From a virus, in IMG/VR virus record IMGVR_UViG_3300021224_000010, positions 1-51,590 of that record: a DNA stretch of 51,590 nt, one strand, 5' to 3'. The number at the start of each line of letters is the position of its first letter. Within the stretch, counting starts at the first letter, position 1. Of the stretch, positions 2,178 to 51,301 are shown in pieces. The notes beneath the pieces were generated by a model. It was not told where the DNA came from and did no database searches. It was given only the letters and a program-made list of their open reading frames with translations. Both the position numbers and the translations under genes were made by a program.

Positions 2178-3311
2178 TTAGGCTGCTGGGTGTTGCGCGG
2201 TGTCGCGGAAAACATCCATCTGCGCCGCGCCATCGAGCCAAGCCGCAGCAATCCGGCGCTCGGCCATTGCGGCATATTCCGGGTTCAGTTCGCACAGAAT
2301 GGATTTGCGACCTTCCTGCATGGCGACGACCGCGGTGGTGCCGGCACCTCCGAAAGGGTCAAGCACGACGCCGCCGAGTGGCGCGCCGGCCAGAATGCAA
2401 GGTCTAATCAGGTCGGGGGGGAAGGTGGCGAAGTGGGCGCCCTTGAAACTGTGGGTCGGCACTGTCCATACGCTGCGCTTGTTTCGCTCGGTGGGCATAA
2501 CTGCAAGGGCGGAGTTCATAGAATCGTTGTCCTTGATACGGCCCCGCGCTCTTTCTTCTCCGTCGGTACCGTAACCCCAGCCCACGCCGTTTGACTTCCT
2601 GGCCACCGCCTTCATGTTGCCGTTGCTCTTGGCCCCGCCGTTGGCGCGCTCACTCCCGATCTGCGAGAGAACGTCTTGTGAGAGGCGGTTGTGGGTGTTG
2701 GGTGAGCATGGTTCAAGGATTGGCGTCTGGTCGTAGTAGTACTTCGCCGACTTGCTCAGCAAAAAAATGTACTCGTGGGCCTTAGTGCAGCGGTCGCGGA
2801 CACTGTCCGGCATTGGATTTGGCTTATGCCAAATGATGTCTTGGCGCAGATACCAGCCATCGTCCTGCAGGGCAAAGGCCAAGCGCCAGGGCATTCCCAT
2901 CATGTCCTTGGGCTTGAACCCAGGTACGGCGTAGTCACTGCGCGGAACGCTTTCATTATCCCTACGGCGGGAGGCAACTGTGCGGCGGGCCTTGGCGGCT
3001 GTAACGCTTTCATCGCGCCCGACGCCGGTAATTGACTGACTATTGCCACCGCAGCGGGAGCCGGCATAGCTATCACCCATATTCACCCAGGCCGTTCCAT
3101 CATCGCTGAGTACTCGGCGCACCTCGCGGAACACTTCGACCAGGCGCCCGATGAACTCGGCCGGCGTTTCCTCCAGGCCTATCTGGCCGTCGACGCCGTA
3201 ATCCCGCAGGCCGTAGTAGGGCGGGCTGGTAACGCACATTTGAACCGATTTATCCGGTAGCGTCCGCATCGACTCAATGCAGTCGCCGATCAAGACGCGA
3301 TGCTGTTTCAT
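2178..3311 (-). CDS. DNA methyltransferase, N4-cytosine or N6-adenine, beta-type order
   Basis: A 377-residue amino-methyltransferase of the DNA N4/N6 methylase family. Catalytic motif IV, SPPYYGLRDYG, is at residues 29-39 and the AdoMet-binding motif I, DPFGGAGTT, is near residue 318, so the order is IV then I (beta class). SPPY is commonest in N4-cytosine enzymes but also occurs in N6-adenine ones, so the target base is open. No partner endonuclease is adjacent, so it is probably an orphan that protects phage DNA from host restriction. The start overlaps the 18-codon ORF upstream (ATGA) and has AAGGGG upstream. Confidence 0.93.
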   Translation of the reverse strand: MKQHRVLIGDCIESMRTLPDKSVQMCVTSPPYYGLRDYGVDGQIGLEETPAEFIGRLVEVFREVRRVLSDDGTAWVNMGDSYAGSRCGGNSQSITGVGRDESVTAAKARRTVASRRRDNESVPRSDYAVPGFKPKDMMGMPWRLAFALQDDGWYLRQDIIWHKPNPMPDSVRDRCTKAHEYIFLLSKSAKYYYDQTPILEPCSPNTHNRLSQDVLSQIGSERANGGAKSNGNMKAVARKSNGVGWGYGTDGEERARGRIKDNDSMNSALAVMPTERNKRSVWTVPTHSFKGAHFATFPPDLIRPCILAGAPLGGVVLDPFGGAGTTAVVAMQEGRKSILCELNPEYAAMAERRIAAAWLDGAAQMDVFRDTAQHPAA

Positions 3312-5855: not shown

Positions 5856-5949
5856 GGCTAAATTAGATAAAGTTGTTGAGTTACTTAATCTGCTTGTTCA
5901 GCTGCTTTCGTTCTTAATCGAACTATTGAAGTTATGCGGCTGCTGCTGA
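5854..5949 (+). CDS. 31-residue leucine-rich amphipathic peptide
   Basis: A rightward small gene of 31 codons inside a leftward operon. After MAKLDKVVE the peptide is nearly all Leu, Val, Ile and Phe with occasional Asn, Gln and Glu, ending KLCGCC: a single amphipathic or membrane helix, as in small toxic or membrane-active peptides of type I toxin systems. A GAGGG ribosome site lies 8 bases upstream within a hairpin loop. The DNA is AT-rich compared with its neighbours. The 3' end overlaps the end of the convergent C5 methyltransferase gene by 18 bp. No homology is claimed. Confidence 0.45.
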   Translation: MAKLDKVVELLNLLVQLLSFLIELLKLCGCC

Positions 5950-7971
5950 ATGAAACTCTACTAATTTCCAGGGATCGTTAGCCCTGGCCAGCGCAGCCAT
6001 CGGCGGCGGGCTGACGCTGTTGCCGCACATGTGGACCTGCTGAGTCTTGGTGAAAGGCTTGCCGTCGGCACCATGGCTGATGATGTAGTCGGCCGGGAAG
6101 CCCTGGGCCTTGTACAGCTCGGCGGGTTTCAGCATCCGCAGGCAGATGTCGACGATCACGTAGGGCGTGCCCTTGACCATAACGGTGACCATGGCCAAGC
6201 GGTCTTTGGTGGTAATGGTCGGCGCCGGGGAGTCGCAAGCGCTGATGTTCTCGGTGCCGTAGTAGCTGATCAGGAAGGCGGCGACGCGCAGGGCACCGGC
6301 TTCGTGTTCAGGCGACAGGGTGAGCGAAACAAGCGAGCTCTTGCCACCGCCGCCGGCTGTGATGGTCGGCGCCGGTTCTTCAAGGCCCTGGCCGACGCTG
6401 CCGCCGAATGCCCGCTCCATGAATGCGCTGGCCAGTCCGTGGTGCTGGCCGCCGGCGCTGATGGTGTGCAGCGGGTCGTTGACGTCCCGTGCATCGCAGT
6501 TGCCCCGCAAGTGCACCAGGTTCGCCGCTACCAGCTGCTGCTGGCTGCCGGTGTTGGTCACCGTCGTCATCGGGTCTTCGATGCTCTTGGCGTCCGTGGC
6601 GTTGAAGCCGCCATTCATTTGGGCCATGAATGCCATCGCAATGCCGTACTTTCCGCCAGAGGCCATGATTGTTCCCAGCGGCTGGCCAAGGTCGGCGCTG
6701 CGCGGTGCCGACCGAGGCTTGTCACCGTTCCCGAGCTGGACAAGCGCCGCAGCGGCGATAGCGCGGTGATTCTGGGTCATCAAGGTGCCGGTAGGCTGGT
6801 CCACGCTCACCGGCTTGCCGGAATACTCAGGACCACCGGCCCCCACCATCAGCGGACTGATCAGCGTCAACTCGCCTCGGTTTGCGCAGGTCACTGTCGG
6901 CGGCGGTTCGAGTGGGTCATTGATTCGGTCGCTGCCCTGGTGGGTAGCTGGGGCAATGATCGGGCTGACCACCGAGAAGGCGCCGCCCTTTGGGTAGGAG
7001 GTGATTGTGCGCAGCGGTTCATCTGCGGACTGGACTGCCTCGCCGGACCAATTGGCAATCGGCACAATGAAGGGCGCCGCGCTGTCGATGACGAACTTCT
7101 TCATGCCCTTGGCAACGCGCCGCAGGGTGGCCGGGGCCAAGTCTTTCTTGCGGCCGAAGATGCTTTTGCCCAAGTCGGTGAAGTCGATGCAGTCAGCGGC
7201 TGTTTTCCACTTCTGCTGGCCTTTGACGGGGTTCTTGGCATGGGTTGGCTCCGGCCACACGATTGGCTGGCCGTCGCACCGCGCAATCATGAACAGGCGT
7301 TCCCGGCTGGTCGGCGCGCCGAAGTCGCAGGCCTTGATCACCTTCCATTCAACGACATAGCCCATGCCTTCCAGAAGGGCCACGAAGCGACGCCAGGTCC
7401 GGCCGCGCTGCTTGGGGTCGGGAATCAGGAACTGCTCGCCCACCGGCACAACCTCACCAGGTGCAGCAACTTCACCGGAGAGTTTTACCACGCGACCGGT
7501 GGCCTTATCTCGCTTGGCGATCAGTCGGCCCCACTGCAGGATCTGCTTTACGTTCTCCAAGCTGATCACCCGGGGCCGTTTCATGCCTGCCCACTTGAGA
7601 CCGATCCACGAAAGGTTGCAGATCTCGCGCTTGCGCGGCTGGCCGCCGGCGGCCTGGCTGTGGTGGGTACAGTCTGGCGACATGTGAAACCAACCCACGG
7701 CCTTGCCGCCGCATTCGGTGTCCGGGTCACCCTCGAACACGTCGGTGGTGAAGTGCTGCGCGCCGGGGTGGTTCATGGTGTGCATGCTGATCGCTTGGGG
7801 GCTATGGTTCTTCGCGACGTTAACCGCGCGGCCCAGGCCAATCTCCAGGCCGGTACCGGCACCACCACCACCGCAGAAGAAGTCGACAACGATCTCATCG
7901 TCCTGAGGGTTGAAGCCGAGTCCATATTGGGTTTTAAAATCGAAGGGGTGTTTCTTCTGTTGTGCGGACAT
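5932..7971 (-). CDS. DNA cytosine-5 methyltransferase with a long repeat-built recognition region
   Basis: A 679-residue C5 DNA methyltransferase, long for the family (usually 300-450). Motif I (DFFCGGGGAGTG, residues 30-41), motif IV with catalytic C101 in the variant SPDCTHHS rather than PPCQ, motif VI (LENV, 138-141), motif VIII (APTSRERLFMIAR, 219-231) and motif X (CGNSVSPPPM, 649-658) are all present. Between motifs VIII and X, residues about 317-590 hold eight degenerate copies of a unit beginning P-x-x-T-(I/V/L). No partner nuclease is adjacent, so protection from host restriction is the likely role. ATG follows GAGGATCCCCT. Confidence 0.93.
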   Translation of the reverse strand: MSAQQKKHPFDFKTQYGLGFNPQDDEIVVDFFCGGGGAGTGLEIGLGRAVNVAKNHSPQAISMHTMNHPGAQHFTTDVFEGDPDTECGGKAVGWFHMSPDCTHHSQAAGGQPRKREICNLSWIGLKWAGMKRPRVISLENVKQILQWGRLIAKRDKATGRVVKLSGEVAAPGEVVPVGEQFLIPDPKQRGRTWRRFVALLEGMGYVVEWKVIKACDFGAPTSRERLFMIARCDGQPIVWPEPTHAKNPVKGQQKWKTAADCIDFTDLGKSIFGRKKDLAPATLRRVAKGMKKFVIDSAAPFIVPIANWSGEAVQSADEPLRTITSYPKGGAFSVVSPIIAPATHQGSDRINDPLEPPPTVTCANRGELTLISPLMVGAGGPEYSGKPVSVDQPTGTLMTQNHRAIAAAALVQLGNGDKPRSAPRSADLGQPLGTIMASGGKYGIAMAFMAQMNGGFNATDAKSIEDPMTTVTNTGSQQQLVAANLVHLRGNCDARDVNDPLHTISAGGQHHGLASAFMERAFGGSVGQGLEEPAPTITAGGGGKSSLVSLTLSPEHEAGALRVAAFLISYYGTENISACDSPAPTITTKDRLAMVTVMVKGTPYVIVDICLRMLKPAELYKAQGFPADYIISHGADGKPFTKTQQVHMCGNSVSPPPMAALARANDPWKLVEFHSAAAA

Positions 7972-22266: not shown

Positions 22267-22535
22267 GCCATAACTTCAAGCCGGGCGATCTGGCGCTGGT
22301 TATCAATCACACCTTCCCACCAGTGATCGGCACGTGCGTCGAGCTGATAAGCCGCCATATGGTGAGTCCGGTGGATCGCAAAGACCCAATGGACCCAGGG
22401 GTGTATGAGCAAGAAGGTGGTGATCCGGTATGGGTCGTGAGCGAGGACAAAGCCATCGTTTGGGAGAAGTGGCTGATGCCCCTGCGCGGTGACTTCGCTC
22501 CCGAGCAGCAGAAGTCGCGGGAGGTGATCTCGTGA
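22263..22535 (+). CDS. Hypothetical protein, possible SH3-like barrel
   Basis: A 90-residue protein that starts MSHNFKPGDLALVINHTFPP and goes on as alternating short strands (DPVWVVSEDKAIVWEKWLMP), a pattern often seen in small SH3-like or beta-barrel proteins. No active-site motif. It overlaps both neighbours by 4 bp in the tightly packed nin-like region, which supports expression. Function unknown. Confidence 0.72.
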   Translation: MSHNFKPGDLALVINHTFPPVIGTCVELISRHMVSPVDRKDPMDPGVYEQEGGDPVWVVSEDKAIVWEKWLMPLRGDFAPEQQKSREVIS

Positions 22536-23812
22536 CGACCGCTGCTGTGAAGATCACCGACGCTGAAATCAAGCGGCAGGCCGCCGGTGCCGCACGCGAT
22601 CTTCGGGACGTCGAGGCCCGAGGCCTTTACCTGCGCTTCGCGAAAGATCGCGTCCGGGGCTCCTGGTACCTGGTGGTAAAGGGAGAGTGGAAGCTGATCG
22701 GCCGGCACCCAGACCTCAGTGCCAAGCAGGTCGCCGCAGCATTGCCAGGCATCCGCTTGCGCCTGGATGCCGGGGAAGGTTCCAACCTGTCCAAGTGGCT
22801 GCTGGTGGACGAGCTGCTGGACTGGTACGCCGATCGCATGGCCCGGGACCGGAGCCTTTCGAGCAAGCGCAAGAAGACAGGTGCCTCATTGATCAAGTGC
22901 CACCTGAAGCCACTGCTCGGCGCTGTGCCGCTGGCCTCGGTTGATAAGTCCACCCTGGATGACCGGTTCATGTGGCCGGCCCAAGAATCCATCGGCATCG
23001 ACTACGTGCGCTCGGCGTTCCAGTTGCTGGCCCTGGCCTTCCGCCAGGCATTCAAGCTGCGCCTGATCACCAGCAACCCGATGAAGGACGTGAAATTCAG
23101 CGATTTCTCCAAGGCCAAGGTCGGGGTCAAGCCGTCGCGGCTGCGTGTCACCCAGCTCCAGGACCTGCTGACCCTGCTGCGCGACTCAATGGTCAGCACC
23201 CCGGCTGACGCCATGCTGGCCCTGATGATGCTGTGCCACGGCACTCGGATCGGCGAGACCCGTCAGGCGCAGTGGTCGCACGTCAGCTTGGCTGAGCGCG
23301 AGTGGTTCATCCCGGCCGAGAACACCAAGACCGGCGTCGAGAACCACCTGCCACTGACCGACCAAGTTCGTCAGCTGCTGATCACCTACCGCGACATTCA
23401 GTGGGCCGGTGGCTATGACGGCCAGTTCCTGTTTCCGTCCCGCAAAGGCAAGTCGCTCAGTGAAGGCCAGGCCAGCGCCGTGTTCGCGCGCCTGGGCGAG
23501 GGTGAATGGACGAGCCACGACCTGCGCAAGGTGGCCCGGACCGGTTGGGCAGACATCGGCATCGACCACCTAATCGGTGAGCTGCTGATCAACCACGCCA
23601 TGGGCCACAACGTGAAGGTGTACATCCAGTCGGACGTGATGGCCCGCAAGCGTGATGCCTTGGATCGGTGGTGTGCGTATCTAGACGCGAAGGGTTTCAG
23701 GCGCATTCATGACTTGACCGGCTTTAGATTGGGAGATTCCGGTAATGCCCCAGAAGCCGCAGAGAACAAGGGCTGCGAGCCCATTCAAGAAACAACCATA
23801 GGCGAGGTTTAA
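22532..23812 (+). CDS. Second tyrosine recombinase, in the replication region
   Basis: A 426-residue integrase-like protein of the type with a DUF4102-like N-terminal arm (residues about 1-90) and a catalytic domain with R239 (GTRIGETR), K266 (TKTGVENHLP), H329 and R332 (SHDLRKVARTGW), H355 and Y364 (KVYIQSD). All catalytic residues are present, so it is probably active. It is not next to an excisionase or an att-like site; it lies between small nin genes, coupled by ATGA. It may resolve multimers, act at another site, or be a relic of another element. GTG start. Confidence 0.9.
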   Translation: MTTAAVKITDAEIKRQAAGAARDLRDVEARGLYLRFAKDRVRGSWYLVVKGEWKLIGRHPDLSAKQVAAALPGIRLRLDAGEGSNLSKWLLVDELLDWYADRMARDRSLSSKRKKTGASLIKCHLKPLLGAVPLASVDKSTLDDRFMWPAQESIGIDYVRSAFQLLALAFRQAFKLRLITSNPMKDVKFSDFSKAKVGVKPSRLRVTQLQDLLTLLRDSMVSTPADAMLALMMLCHGTRIGETRQAQWSHVSLAEREWFIPAENTKTGVENHLPLTDQVRQLLITYRDIQWAGGYDGQFLFPSRKGKSLSEGQASAVFARLGEGEWTSHDLRKVARTGWADIGIDHLIGELLINHAMGHNVKVYIQSDVMARKRDALDRWCAYLDAKGFRRIHDLTGFRLGDSGNAPEAAENKGCEPIQETTIGEV

Positions 23813-30851: not shown

Positions 30852-32048
30852 ATGCCTCAAGACCTTTCGCAAATCGAAGCTTCTCAGAAGCAAACCCAGG
30901 CCGACTTGAAAGCTGTCGGCGATCAAATCAAAACTTATGCAGAGCGCACCGAGAAGGAAATCAGAGCCTCTGGGGAGATGCAGGCCGAAACTCGGGCAAA
31001 GGTCGACGAGTTGCTGACAGCGCAAGGCGACTTGCAGGCGCGCGTTCGGGAGGCCGAACAGAAACTGGTTAATGCGGGCAAGCAGCATGAGCCGGAAATT
31101 CAGCAGTCTGCCGGCCAAATGGTTGCAGCCAAAATGCAGGAGGAGGGCGTAAGCAGTTCTTTCCGTGGGTCTCGACGTGTCGAGGTTCCTCGCGCCGCAA
31201 TCACTTCGGCCCCAGCTTCCGGCGGCGCTTTGGTCGCTCCTGACCGTGTCGGCGTGATCTTGGCTCCCCAGCGCCGGCTGACTATCCGCGATCTGGTTGC
31301 ACCTGGTACGACTGGTGCGAACGCTGTTGAGTACGTTCGTGAGACTGGCTTTACCAACAACGCTGCCATCGTTGGTGAAGGCTTGGCCAAGCCTTACAGC
31401 GAACTGACTTTTGGTCTCGAAAACGCGAACGTGCGCACTATTGCCCACTTGTTCAAAGGCAGCCGTCAGATTCTTGATGATGCGGCGGCTCTGCAGAGCT
31501 ACATCGATGCGCGCGCTCGTTACGGCTTGCTGCTGGCTGAAGAGGCGCAGCTGCTTTACGGCAACGGTACCGGTAACAACCTGCACGGCATCATTCCGCA
31601 AGCACAGGCCTACGTGACGCCTTCGGGCATCATTGTTGAAGCCGAGCAACGCATTGACCGTATTCGCTTGGCGTTGCTGCAAGCGACTCTGGCCGAGTTT
31701 CCTTCCACGGGCATTGTGCTCAACCCGATTGATTGGGCCGCCATCGAACTGCTGAAGGATGGGGAAAACCGTTACATCATCGGCAAACCACAGGAAGGCA
31801 CCTCGCCACGCCTGTGGAACCTGCCGGTGGTGGAAACGCAGGCCATCGTCCAGGGGCAGTTCCTTACCGGCGCCTTCAGCCTTGCAGCACAGATCTTTGA
31901 TCGCATGGGTATCGAAGTCCTCGTCTCGACTGAGAACGACAAGGACTTTGAGAACAACATGGTCACCATTCGCGCGGAGGAGCGACTTGCATTTGCGGTG
32001 TACCGCCCTGAAGCGTTCGTGACCGGCCCGCTGGTCGCTGCTCCGTAA
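30852..32048 (+). CDS. Major capsid protein, HK97 fold
   Basis: A 398-residue capsid protein. Residues 1-95 form a coiled-coil delta (scaffold) domain (DLSQIEASQKQTQADLKAVG, VREAEQKLVNAG) that the upstream protease should remove. The HK97 fold starts about residue 115 (SAPASGGALVAPDRVGVILA), with the P-domain regions, and closes with MVTIRAEERLAFAVYRPEAF. ATG follows AAGGAAACC. A GC-rich hairpin follows the gene. Confidence 0.95.
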   Translation: MPQDLSQIEASQKQTQADLKAVGDQIKTYAERTEKEIRASGEMQAETRAKVDELLTAQGDLQARVREAEQKLVNAGKQHEPEIQQSAGQMVAAKMQEEGVSSSFRGSRRVEVPRAAITSAPASGGALVAPDRVGVILAPQRRLTIRDLVAPGTTGANAVEYVRETGFTNNAAIVGEGLAKPYSELTFGLENANVRTIAHLFKGSRQILDDAAALQSYIDARARYGLLLAEEAQLLYGNGTGNNLHGIIPQAQAYVTPSGIIVEAEQRIDRIRLALLQATLAEFPSTGIVLNPIDWAAIELLKDGENRYIIGKPQEGTSPRLWNLPVVETQAIVQGQFLTGAFSLAAQIFDRMGIEVLVSTENDKDFENNMVTIRAEERLAFAVYRPEAFVTGPLVAAP

Positions 32049-32066
32049 GTCCAGCCCTCAAGTAAG

Positions 32067-32086
32067 TGGCCGTCAACCGACGGCCA
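32067..32086 (+). terminator. Stem-loop after the capsid gene
   Basis: TGGCCGTC-AACC-GACGGCCA is a perfect 8-bp stem followed by only TTT. It may be a weak terminator or an mRNA-stabilising structure that sets the capsid gene's expression above that of the genes after it. Confidence 0.6.
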
Positions 32087-32108
32087 TTTCCATATAGGAG
32101 AGACGCAA

Positions 32109-32525
32109 ATGTCCCGTGGAAGCAAATCAAAGCTTGAAGCACCCCAGCCTGCAGCCTCGGCAGATGCTTCGGACGCCATCGCCGACGCTGGCGATTCGTC
32201 AGTGATTATTTCTGATTCGACGGTTGCATTGACGACGACAGGCGCCCCAGCATTTGACGCTGACGCTGACGCTGACGCTGACGCTGACGCTGACGCTGAC
32301 GCTGACGCTGACGCTGACGCTGACGCTGAGGCTGACGCTGAGGCTGACGCTGAGGCTGACGCTGACGCTGATCCAAGTAACCTGCTTTTGATCTACCCAG
32401 TTCGTAGCTATCTGGACGGCAAAGAAATCCGACAGGCTGGTGGGGCCGCATACCGATCTCCGAAGCATGAAGCGCTCTTGTTGATCGCGAAGGGCTTGGC
32501 GACTGAAACCGACCCAAAGGCCTGA
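32109..32525 (+). CDS. Head-region protein with a long Asp-Ala repeat
   Basis: A 138-residue protein. Residues 50-87 are Asp-Ala and Glu-Ala dipeptides encoded by 19 tandem hexanucleotides; the N-terminus is Ser/Ala-rich and the C-terminal 48 residues (LLLIYPVRSYLDGKEIRQAG then GAAYRSPKHEALLLIAKGLA) look like a small folded domain often seen between capsid and connector genes. The polyanionic stretch could be a spacer or DNA mimic, and its length may vary. AGGAG precedes the ATG. Not a known enzyme. Confidence 0.8.
   Translation: MSRGSKSKLEAPQPAASADASDAIADAGDSSVIISDSTVALTTTGAPAFDADADADADADADADADADADADAEADAEADAEADADADPSNLLLIYPVRSYLDGKEIRQAGGAAYRSPKHEALLLIAKGLATETDPKA
32256..32369 (+). repeat. 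Hexanucleotide tandem repeat (GACGCT)
   Basis: Nineteen consecutive 6-bp units: twelve perfect GACGCT, then alternating GAGGCT and GACGCT (three GAGGCT in all), ending with two GACGCT. Unit length is a multiple of three, so copy-number change by slippage keeps the frame and changes the length of the Asp-Ala segment. The perfect 5' block looks recently expanded. Confidence 0.95.
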
Positions 32526-32526
32526 C

Positions 32527-32868
32527 ATGAACATCATTCCGACCGATGAGGCTATGCGACATCTGCGTGCTGAAGACGATGACGTGGCTGATGTCGAGTT
32601 GTACCTTTCCGCCGCGGAAGATAGCGCTGCTCAGTTCCTGAATCGAAAGATCTTCGCTGATCAGGCTGCGCTTGATGAGGCTGTCGCAGAGGGGGTGGCG
32701 GGCGACCGCCCGGTGCTGATAAACCCCTCTATCCGCGCTGCATGTCTGCTCATCCTGGGAAATCTCTTTGAAAACCGCGAGGACACGGTCGTTGGCACCA
32801 TCTCATCTGAGTTGCCTTTCGGGTCGCGATCCTTGCTCACACCCTATCGAATTGGGTTGGGGGTTTGA
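32527..32868 (+). CDS. Head-tail connector protein (gp6-like)
   Basis: A 113-residue protein of the phage head-tail connector type (HK97 gp6-like). DVELYLSAAEDSAAQFLNRK (about residues 24-43), then INPSIRAACLLILGNLFENR and the ending FGSRSLLTPYR are typical. It would form the ring beneath the portal. It ends in a TGATG overlap with the head closure gene. Confidence 0.9.
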   Translation: MNIIPTDEAMRHLRAEDDDVADVELYLSAAEDSAAQFLNRKIFADQAALDEAVAEGVAGDRPVLINPSIRAACLLILGNLFENREDTVVGTISSELPFGSRSLLTPYRIGLGV

Positions 32869-35492: not shown

Positions 35493-35798
35493 ATGAAAAA
35501 GATGTTCATTGTGGTACTAGCATGCGTATTGGCCGCCTGTAGCACCTATGGAAAGCCTGTCACGCAGGCGCAACTGGATCAAATTAAACAGGGTGTTACG
35601 ACGAAGGATGACCTGCTGAGCAGTTTCGGAAAACCCCTAGTGACTGCGCGTAATTCAGACGGTACACAGGTGATGTCCTGGGGGTACGCCAAGGTTGGGT
35701 TTGCCGGGTCTAGTTATACGAACCAGGCACTGAGTGTTGTGCTGGATTCCTCCGGTAAGGTGGCGAGCTTCACGACCACGGATACAGCGACGCCTTAG
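35493..35798 (+). CDS. BamE/SmpA-like lipoprotein cargo gene
   Basis: A 101-residue lipoprotein. Signal MKKMFIVVLACVLAACS with lipobox LAAC (Cys16), followed by a SmpA/OmlA-like fold: LDQIKQGVTTKDDLLSSFGK (start of the domain), MSWGYAKVG and LSVVLDSSGKVASF. It should sit in the outer membrane or periplasm. It interrupts the tail module between chaperone and tape measure, with AAAAGGAG upstream and a strong terminator directly behind, which is the build of a moron expressed in the lysogen. Superinfection exclusion or surface change is a likely but untested role. Confidence 0.88.
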   Translation: MKKMFIVVLACVLAACSTYGKPVTQAQLDQIKQGVTTKDDLLSSFGKPLVTARNSDGTQVMSWGYAKVGFAGSSYTNQALSVVLDSSGKVASFTTTDTATP

Positions 35799-46189: not shown

Positions 46190-47848
46190 TTATGAAAGCA
46201 GGAACTGCATTTTCATGGATCCAGCAGGAATGGAACCGGTATAGGTTGAGCTGCCTTGCTTGATGTTGAACGCGTAATGACCTTGTTCAGCTTCATGTCG
46301 CAGGTTCATAACTTCATATGTTCCAACAGCAACAGCGTTGCTGTTATCCCTGAACTTTCGGGTTCGGTTTACTTCCAAAATCCGAACACGCTTTACTCGA
46401 TCTTCCTGGACTGAATCCAGTACAGCCTGATCAACGAACACATGCCCGAAAGCGCTGGACTTTAAATTGTCAGCGTTCAACAAGACGGCATCAGCATCCT
46501 TTTCTGTTCCGTCTTGAATGCTGCATACAAGGCCGGCCCACTTTTCCGCAATGTTGTTGTGGCCGAATCGCTTGACGTTTTCGGGGCCAGCGACTGTTGC
46601 TCCATCAAAGAATTCGTCATTGGTGAGAACCTCGATGACGCGCTCTACAAAGCTTTCATCATCGTCTACAACGAACCCGTCTTTGCCGTCACTGATAATT
46701 TCTTCGGGGCCGTAGTTGGTTCGGTATGAAACAACCGGTGTACCCATGGATAGGGACTCCATGAAGCTAAGCCCGAATCCTTCATGTTCCGATGCTGCAA
46801 GGCTTACGCGTGCGCGCCGGAAAGGGCCTGAAGGATTCGCCGTGTAGCCCATCATGGTCACTGACTCGCCAAGGCCAAGCAGATCGATCGCTTTTCTAAT
46901 TGGCGCGTCGTCGGCGCCAGACCCCCATATTTCAAGCTTTGCACCAGGTACGCGGTCGATGACCTTGCGGAAATTCCTGACGATTCTTGAAATGCCCTTG
47001 AGCGCATCCAGGCGACTGATCACAACAGCTAGGTTTTTATCCCGGCGAATCTCACCGACTGGCGAAAAGTTGGTAAGTGGGTTGCCGATGACATGGATTT
47101 TCGGGTTGTGCCCGTACTCCAGTTCAAGGTCCCGATGCTGGGCGCGTGTAAGAACGACCAGGGCATCACACCGCTTAAGGTTTTCAAGCACTTCGACGCT
47201 GCTGGCTTTTACAGCGGCACCGAACGAATAAGGCGGGTTCAGGTGATTGCTGTGCATCGTCAGGATTTTAAAAATCTGCTCGCCGCGCACGTTGACCACG
47301 ATATGGCTTGCCCGCCACGGGTCAGCAATCAGGACTGCTGGCAGGTTGTGGTTACTTATCTGCTCAAGCCAATAGCTCTGTGAATCAAACTTGGAGCTGA
47401 AGTGGACAGACTTTTTGCCGGGTAGAAATAGAGACGACGAAAGTACGTTTCGGTCGGCGTCTAATATTTCCTCTGCAAAAATGTATCCGGAGCCAATTGC
47501 ATAACGAACGATCTGCATGCCCGTCACGCCGATGAATTCGCTTGTTCGAATCACCGGCACATCCAGCATTGAGCCATTAATACCAACGGTATGACCTGGG
47601 TCAGTGTTGCCGGCCTGGGCGATGCTGGCGTAATAAGAGTAGAGGTTGACCACGATTACATCTGGCGAGAGGCGCCCGTCAGCACGCATGGTCCGGACTG
47701 AGGCAGCGATGCGAGTGTCATGCTCAAGCAGGGCGATAACTGCGGACTGTCCGTGTAAGGAAAGCATTTCTGCCCGACTTAAAGAGACCCGCGTGATTCC
47801 TCCAGCGTTAGGAGATAGCCGATTTAGGATTGAAATAACTTGTGACAC
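46190..47848 (-). CDS. GT4 glycosyltransferase, TagE/TarM-like, probable serotype conversion
   Basis: A 552-residue GT-B glycosyltransferase. MHSNHLNPPYSFGAAVK (198-214) and the GT4 motif E356-x7-E364 in EHEGFGLSFMESLSMGTPVV, preceded by VVISRLDALKGISRIVRNF, resemble the poly(glycerol-phosphate) glucosyltransferase TagE/TarM group. A beta-rich C-terminal part follows. It lies antisense within the late region beside the tailspike, so it is probably expressed in the lysogen to change the surface sugar that phages use. GTG start behind GAGGGCG, 2 bp after the small gene upstream. The exact acceptor is unknown. Confidence 0.87.
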   Translation of the reverse strand: MSQVISILNRLSPNAGGITRVSLSRAEMLSLHGQSAVIALLEHDTRIAASVRTMRADGRLSPDVIVVNLYSYYASIAQAGNTDPGHTVGINGSMLDVPVIRTSEFIGVTGMQIVRYAIGSGYIFAEEILDADRNVLSSSLFLPGKKSVHFSSKFDSQSYWLEQISNHNLPAVLIADPWRASHIVVNVRGEQIFKILTMHSNHLNPPYSFGAAVKASSVEVLENLKRCDALVVLTRAQHRDLELEYGHNPKIHVIGNPLTNFSPVGEIRRDKNLAVVISRLDALKGISRIVRNFRKVIDRVPGAKLEIWGSGADDAPIRKAIDLLGLGESVTMMGYTANPSGPFRRARVSLAASEHEGFGLSFMESLSMGTPVVSYRTNYGPEEIISDGKDGFVVDDDESFVERVIEVLTNDEFFDGATVAGPENVKRFGHNNIAEKWAGLVCSIQDGTEKDADAVLLNADNLKSSAFGHVFVDQAVLDSVQEDRVKRVRILEVNRTRKFRDNSNAVAVGTYEVMNLRHEAEQGHYAFNIKQGSSTYTGSIPAGSMKMQFLLS

Positions 47849-50253: not shown

Positions 50254-50934
50254 TCAGCGGACTGGCCGGATCAACTCCTGCCCTTTGTTCCGCACGTTGC
50301 CCACGGCTGCGTCGACCTTGAACCACTCAAATGCTTCCGACAGTTCGCCCTGGTGCAGCACCATCTGCTCGGCGCGCTCCTTGGGCGTAGCTGGGTCTAG
50401 CCATTCCCTTGCAAGCTCCGGCGTCAGCACAACCGGCCGACGGTCGTGAATATCCACCATGCCGCCGGCGCTGTCGGCGGTGATGATCACAAAGCCGTCA
50501 TGCTCGCTCTGTTCTTCGCCGGCATCCGGCAGTTGACCAATGGCTACGCACAGCACTGGCGCGCCATCCCGCCTGCGGATCAGGTAGGGCTGCTTCTTCG
50601 GCCCGCCTTCGTCTACCCACTCAAACCAGTTGTTGATCGGCGTGATTGCCCGGTGCGGCCAGATCGCCCGGAAGAACGGGCCGTGTGCGACCTTCTCGAC
50701 GCGGGCATTGATCGGCGCCGCCCGGTCCTTGGCCCAATGCGGCCGCCATCCCCAGCGCAACAGGTCCGCGCGCAGAAGATCGCCTTGGAGGTGGAGCAGG
50801 GCGACTTGTGTCGTCGGCGCCACGTTGTAGCGCTCCAGCGGCGCATCACCCACGGAGTTCACCAGGGCATTGGGCATGCTCAATGCTGCAACGAAGTCGT
50901 GAATGCCGGTGTACTGTGAAAGTCTTCCGCACAT
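50254..50934 (-). CDS. SOS response-associated peptidase (YedK/HMCES, SRAP)
   Basis: A 226-residue SRAP-domain protein. After MCGRLSQY it bears Cys2, the nucleophile that links to abasic sites in ssDNA, YNVAPTTQVALL, the NNWFEW block (catalytic Glu) and DIHDRRPVVLTP (His). It protects abasic sites during DNA damage. ATG 50934 follows GAGGGCCTGGCT; the open frame beyond is extension only. It lies 28 bp behind the coiled-coil gene and probably shares its LexA-boxed transcript. Confidence 0.93.
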   Translation of the reverse strand: MCGRLSQYTGIHDFVAALSMPNALVNSVGDAPLERYNVAPTTQVALLHLQGDLLRADLLRWGWRPHWAKDRAAPINARVEKVAHGPFFRAIWPHRAITPINNWFEWVDEGGPKKQPYLIRRRDGAPVLCVAIGQLPDAGEEQSEHDGFVIITADSAGGMVDIHDRRPVVLTPELAREWLDPATPKERAEQMVLHQGELSEAFEWFKVDAAVGNVRNKGQELIRPVR

Positions 50935-50962
50935 AGCCAGGCCCTCTATCTGAAACTTGAGC

Positions 50963-51301
50963 TTAGACAATCGTTTTTGGCTGGGGCACCAAGTTGACAA
51001 GCATCTGGCGGAGCCTCTCTGCTTCGCGCTCACTGGCCCTGACGGACATTCCGAGCGAGTCGATCTGCTTGCGCATGGCAGCGACTTCGGCGCCTCTCTC
51101 GGCGAGGTATCCCCTGTACTCGCTTTTAACGGCCTCGGCGTCGGCCAGCATCTTGGTCAATCCGAAAATATCCTCTCTGGCTTTGCGCAGATGCAGGTTT
51201 AATTCCTGGATTTCGTTCTCCAGTAACAGGGCGTGCTGGTGGCACATTTCTAAGGGCGTGGGGCTGCCAAGCCACCAATCGGTGTCTTCATCGATGTTCA
51301 T
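50963..51301 (-). CDS. Coiled-coil protein under a LexA box
   Basis: A 112-residue protein whose residues about 25-100 are a long coiled coil (HALLLENEIQELNLHLRKAR; AVKSEYRGYLAERGAEVAAM). The start MNIDEDTDWWLGSPTPLEM at 51301 is chosen over ATG 51331, which lies inside the LexA box; GGAAAG is about 10 bases upstream, a weak ribosome site. It heads the leftward SRAP operon. Function unknown; an SOS-linked structural or DNA-related role fits the context. Confidence 0.7.
   Translation of the reverse strand: MNIDEDTDWWLGSPTPLEMCHQHALLLENEIQELNLHLRKAREDIFGLTKMLADAEAVKSEYRGYLAERGAEVAAMRKQIDSLGMSVRASEREAERLRQMLVNLVPQPKTIV

Follow-up and report, generated by a model that had tools for sequence, protein, structure and literature searches.

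A frame-preserving hexamer repeat in a gpFI-like post-capsid gene, and copy-number variation of such arrays among related phages

This work describes a short tandem repeat in the head gene cluster of a virus genome, IMG/VR record IMGVR_UViG_3300021224_000010, which was analyzed over its positions 1 to 51,590 (referred to here as the window). The genome is of a temperate phage type, with an integrase that has a lambda-type arm-binding domain; two genes of the tyrosine integrase family are present, at 1 to 1116 on the minus strand and at 22532 to 23812 on the plus strand. All features of the head region discussed below lie on the plus strand. An HK97-type major capsid protein (MCP) is encoded at 30852 to 32048 (PF05065, E value of 7.7e-58), and a gp6-like head-tail connector is encoded at 32527 to 32868 (PF05135, E value of 3.2e-5; phrog_40, E value of 1.9e-24). 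Directly between the two, at 32109 to 32525, lies a gene for a 138-aa protein, with an ATG start codon and AGGAGA at 32096 to 32101. We refer to this gene as the slot gene; its relatives belong to phrog_26753 and phrog_7993 and include orf6.5 of Pseudomonas phage D3. Between the MCP gene and the slot gene, RNA folding gives a terminator- or attenuator-like hairpin (AAGTGGCCGTC-AACC-GACGGCCATTT, 32064 to 32089). In most relatives, in D3, N15, and lambda, and in a second phage group described below, a strong hairpin likewise follows the MCP gene; it is not evident in one locus (L251). The N15 and phi80 records carry an annotated terminator at this position, and the hairpin is probably a partial terminator that sets expression of the capsid protein above that of the slot gene product, a candidate packaging chaperone.

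The slot gene product begins with a short basic tip (MSRGSKSKLEAP, net charge of +2, 32109 to 32144), of which M(A/S)R is kept across the family (alignment A4), and ends in a candidate head-binding domain (LLLIYPVRSYLDGKEIRQAGG...AKGLATETDPKA, 32382 to 32522). This C-terminal domain holds all 23 invariant columns of the alignment except M1 and R3, and the conserved C-terminal portion of the protein comprises 46 residues. Tandem Repeats Finder (TRF) returned a single array for the whole 51.6-kb window, and it lies between these two parts (32255 to 32371; period 6, 19.5 copies, 94% matches, score of 213). When read unit by unit, the array consists of 19 units at 32256 to 32369—12 GACGCT units, three GAGGCT/GACGCT pairs, and one further GACGCT—that encode Asp-Ala and Glu-Ala in frame within the slot gene, which confirms the repeat noted in the original prediction, made from the sequence alone. 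The longest exact period-6 run in the gene is 75 bp, whereas shuffling its codons 2,000 times produced no run longer than 23 bp. AF2 gives pLDDT values below 50 across most of residues 35 to 81, and the linker is accordingly predicted to be disordered. The copy number in the window was read from one virus contig, in which the 114-bp array is close to the short-read length limit. Antisense frames reading (SV)n and (RQ)n at 32199 to 32562 were set aside as mere by-products of the array.

Relatives of the slot gene (the window family) were found both in Pseudomonas genomes and among IMG/VR contigs; the domain was present in 22 of 399 sampled Pseudomonas genomes, and in nearly all relatives the MCP gene lies directly upstream. 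From the M(A/S)R start to the conserved domain, these proteins are highly divergent, with 32 to 224 aa of N-terminal part and linker across the family. Their linkers have either no repeat, (DA)n encoded as GACGCT or GATGCT, (DAA)n encoded as GCTGACGCT, or, in one relative, (GDA)15 encoded as GGTGACGCT. A collagen-like reading was dropped, as G-X-Y units were found in L032 alone. All 41 distinct relatives have a linker with a net negative charge, while the first 12 residues have a positive net charge in 30 and a net charge of zero in 11. On the capsid-gene tree, the DA label requires four changes and the DAA label two; because several changes are needed, arrays have been gained or lost more than once. 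Copy number also differs between very similar loci. In one pair of Pseudomonas phages, L035 has 5 units and L039 has 7, and their flanks show a single mismatch over 5,025 bases; a second pair (L041 and L049) has 13 and ∼62 nine-bp units within flanks that are ∼99% identical.

The slot gene is located directly after the MCP gene and before the head-tail joining genes, as is the gene for gpFI in lambda, where the gene order is E-FI-FII and the DNA-packaging chaperone FI fills the post-capsid slot. gpFI bound to the prohead gpE lattice (PMC4856287), and its nonspecific DNA binding has been proposed to help form the DNA-terminase-prohead complex (PMC4856287); FI was scored as essential in lambda (PMC10695390). 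Lambda gpFI (PF14000; C-terminal domain, PDB entry 2LSM) and its N15 and phi80 homologues share with the window the slot, an acidic linker, the hairpin after the MCP gene, and a small C-terminal domain with a terminal A..L...GLA motif. A profile of 46 window-family domains matched a 6-member profile of the gpFI C-terminal domain with an hhalign score of 25.3 (probability of 65%, E value of 5.9e-5; maximum of 12.7 in 200 column shuffles), a match that spans only 20 to 23 columns. Against the single lambda gpFI sequence, the score was 18.7, which none of 300 shuffles reached. By its slot and its C-terminal profile, the slot gene product thus resembles gpFI. Membership in gpFI or PF14000 is not claimed, since the match is short, PF14000 gave no match in the window protein even at an E value of 1 (4.8e-59 for lambda FI itself), and no helical N-terminal domain is predicted (AF2, low confidence), with only the short basic tip in its place. 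PF14000 surveys in Gammaproteobacteria gave almost no matches. For the window protein, AF2 yields a poor model (mean pLDDT of 54) that is too uncertain for a fold search, and querying solved structures with the sequence of the window domain retrieved nothing. D3 orf6.5, which also directly follows the capsid gene, has a homologous domain (54% identity over 39 aa); unlike in the window protein, this domain is N-terminal and is followed by a C-terminal tail, and there is no array.

Arrays also occur in true gpFI genes. Those of N15, phi80, MStein-2023a, and Phi06_2987 carry 3 to 8 copies of CCGACAGCA (Asp-Ser-Thr) in the same linker; like the window array, these repeats are acidic and in frame, but the units are 9-bp DST rather than 6-bp DA, and lambda gpFI has no array. 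In complete E. coli genomes, N15/phi80-type gpFI genes have 3, 4, and 5 units in one set of loci (L315, L312, and L317) and 4, 5, and 6 units in another (L320, L313, and L314); within each set, the 2,275 flanking bases show no mismatch. Full-match lengths of this gene in 34 genomes, several of which represent one clone, are 408, 417, 426, 435, and 444 bp, in steps of 9; the arrays were read directly in ten. In a spread of 60 out of 3,195 records, the full-length array-free lambda-type gpFI genes measure 399 or 396 bp only.

High-purity units and copy differences between near-identical sequences mark the array type as a slippage-type variable-number tandem repeat (VNTR), the differences being those of relatives rather than of the window's own population. 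The original prediction had proposed that the array is slippage prone while keeping the frame and had named a copy-number survey of related phages as a check. The proposal held up: the 6-bp unit lies in an open reading frame, relatives differ by whole units, and copy number is not fixed among very close relatives (5 versus 7, 3/4/5, and 4/5/6). Among relatives, whole 6- or 9-bp units are gained or lost faster than point mutations build up, as would be expected of slippage or unequal exchange. Apart from the frame breaks described below, frame and negative charge are kept and length is not; judging from these comparisons, linker length in this slot protein is evolving unusually fast. Tandem units also change by slippage in bacterial contingency loci and VNTRs, but the term “contingency-type,” applied earlier to the window array, had to be abandoned. 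A 6-bp unit inside an open reading frame keeps the frame, so this is not a phase-variable contingency locus; with no frame switching, neither 6- nor 9-bp units can turn the gene on or off.

A survey of DA-coding arrays in IMG/VR found that such arrays are common and lie mostly outside this slot. Three of them occupy the same post-capsid slot in a different HK97-type group (the second group), whose capsid proteins are ∼19% identical to those of the window group. Second-group relatives found by domain rather than by repeat have (EQP)n, (PE)n, or no array, and four close relatives carry ∼2, 5, 6 to 7, and 21 AGCCTG units. Some members of the second-group slot have a HeH/LEM domain at the C terminus. 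The HeH/LEM post-capsid proteins of phages D14E and VW-6S (PF12949), which have repeat-bearing relatives with (DA)n, (EQP)n, and (PE)n, share with the window protein the slot and a build of small domain plus linker, but their domain order is reversed; the likeness claimed is one of slot and architecture. In other capsid families, a (PT)n linker was found in L068 (phrog_617), and short (DA)6 arrays were found in the post-capsid gene of L076 and L103 (phrog_29). Such a repeat had been expected to be rare; in-frame arrays instead recur in this slot gene across several unrelated phage groups. Across 108 loci (759 kb), which were gathered by domain scans rather than by the repeat survey (with the three repeat-survey loci excluded from the second set), all 15 arrays with a period of ≤9 fell inside the slot gene, or ∼5% of the sequence; the loci are not independent, and length-based probabilities overstate the significance. 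We discarded the general reading of DA arrays as markers of head genes, as (GAYGCN)n arrays turn up in viral contigs of many kinds. Perfect Asp-Ala arrays of this form are found in many unrelated IMG/VR viral proteins, such as those of L086, L111, L122, and L146.

Profile comparison of the second-group domain with the window domain gave no match, and homology between the C-terminal domains of the two groups is therefore not claimed; comparison of the second-group domain with gpFI likewise gave no match. A Foldseek search of the PDB with the second-group model returned nothing below an E value of 0.4. VIA-align gave weak similarity to 2LSM (Z score of 3.7) and to Bacillus subtilis YqbF (2HJQ; Z score of 4.0, rmsd of 10.5), neither better than unrelated rows, and a sequence search of solved structures gave chance-level matches only. 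In two second-group loci, L244/L134 and L250 (3191 to 3232), the reading frame is broken at the array or immediately ahead of it; in L244, translation of the slot gene past this point gives (MP)n and runs on into the connector gene. Such breaks may reflect genuine null alleles or faulty assembly.

Taken together, the array in the window is quite probably an in-frame VNTR in the disordered acidic linker of a gpFI-like packaging chaperone, where it would set the reach and the charge of a tether. In the mechanism we propose, the C-terminal domain would dock on the capsid protein lattice of the empty head, and the basic N-terminal tip, in whose place other phages have a helical domain or an HeH/LEM domain, would contact DNA or the terminase-DNA complex. 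Between them, the acidic linker would act as a flexible tether that separates the two ends, stays off the DNA, and tolerates large changes in length, such that repeat copy number would determine tether reach and charge. For the window protein and its relatives, binding to the capsid and to DNA is putative, as is activity in packaging.

How much of the copy-number variation matters to the phage is a separate matter. An even chance may be given to neutral slippage, whereby the linker need only be disordered, acidic, and in frame, and arrays could expand or contract with no consequence for fitness. The length range of the family, its many relatives with no array, and the several different unit types all fit this account, whereas the concentration of arrays in one gene of the regions examined and the acidic residue in nearly all unit types speak against it. 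The alternative, in which selection favors rapid changes in copy number because they act as a rheostat on packaging efficiency, appears unlikely: copy number does vary between otherwise identical prophages, and arrays do recur in the same gene slot of unrelated phages, but no phenotype is known, a preferred length is not apparent, and mere tolerance predicts the variation equally well. We thus advance only tentatively the broader idea that hypermutable microsatellites that keep the frame, placed in the tether of a packaging chaperone, serve phages time and again as a rheostat for length and charge, through which populations would explore packaging efficiency within a few generations. The earlier proposal that the array tunes linker length and negative charge accordingly stands insofar as the array changes both; selective tuning finds no support in a family with linkers this variable.

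The original prediction had placed the repeat in an exposed linker of a structural virion protein. The gene does lie within the head cluster, and a distant structural relative of the second group, from Achromobacter phage AchV4, is named “virion structural protein” (E value of 0.013). However, slot, architecture, and profile favor gpFI, and the paper on the D3 capsid structure makes no mention of gp6.5 or orf6.5, which leaves a head decoration or structural protein improbable. Least credible by far is an assembly artifact; although the window is a single contig with an array of about short-read length, arrays of the same kind, with orderly whole-unit differences, are present in isolate and complete genomes.

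In the open papers that we searched, we found no description of these repeats. They suggest a general pattern that can be tested: a small capsid-adjacent gene, probably for a packaging chaperone, in which an in-frame repeat evolves quickly in phages that are unrelated, among them the well-studied N15/phi80 type. Because E. coli prophage regions that are otherwise identical carry natural alleles of 3 to 6 copies, a role of tether length in packaging is directly testable. A function is also suggested for D3 orf6.5 and for many post-capsid genes annotated as “hypothetical” or “HeH/LEM.” Elsewhere in the window, a small lipoprotein-like open reading frame with a weak BamE match lies just ahead of the tape-measure gene (35493 to 35798) and may be a lysogenic-conversion gene. 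Further genes at 2178 to 3311, 5932 to 7971, 46190 to 47848, and 50254 to 51033, all on the minus strand, comprise two DNA methyltransferase genes, a glycosyltransferase gene past the tail genes, and an SRAP-domain gene.
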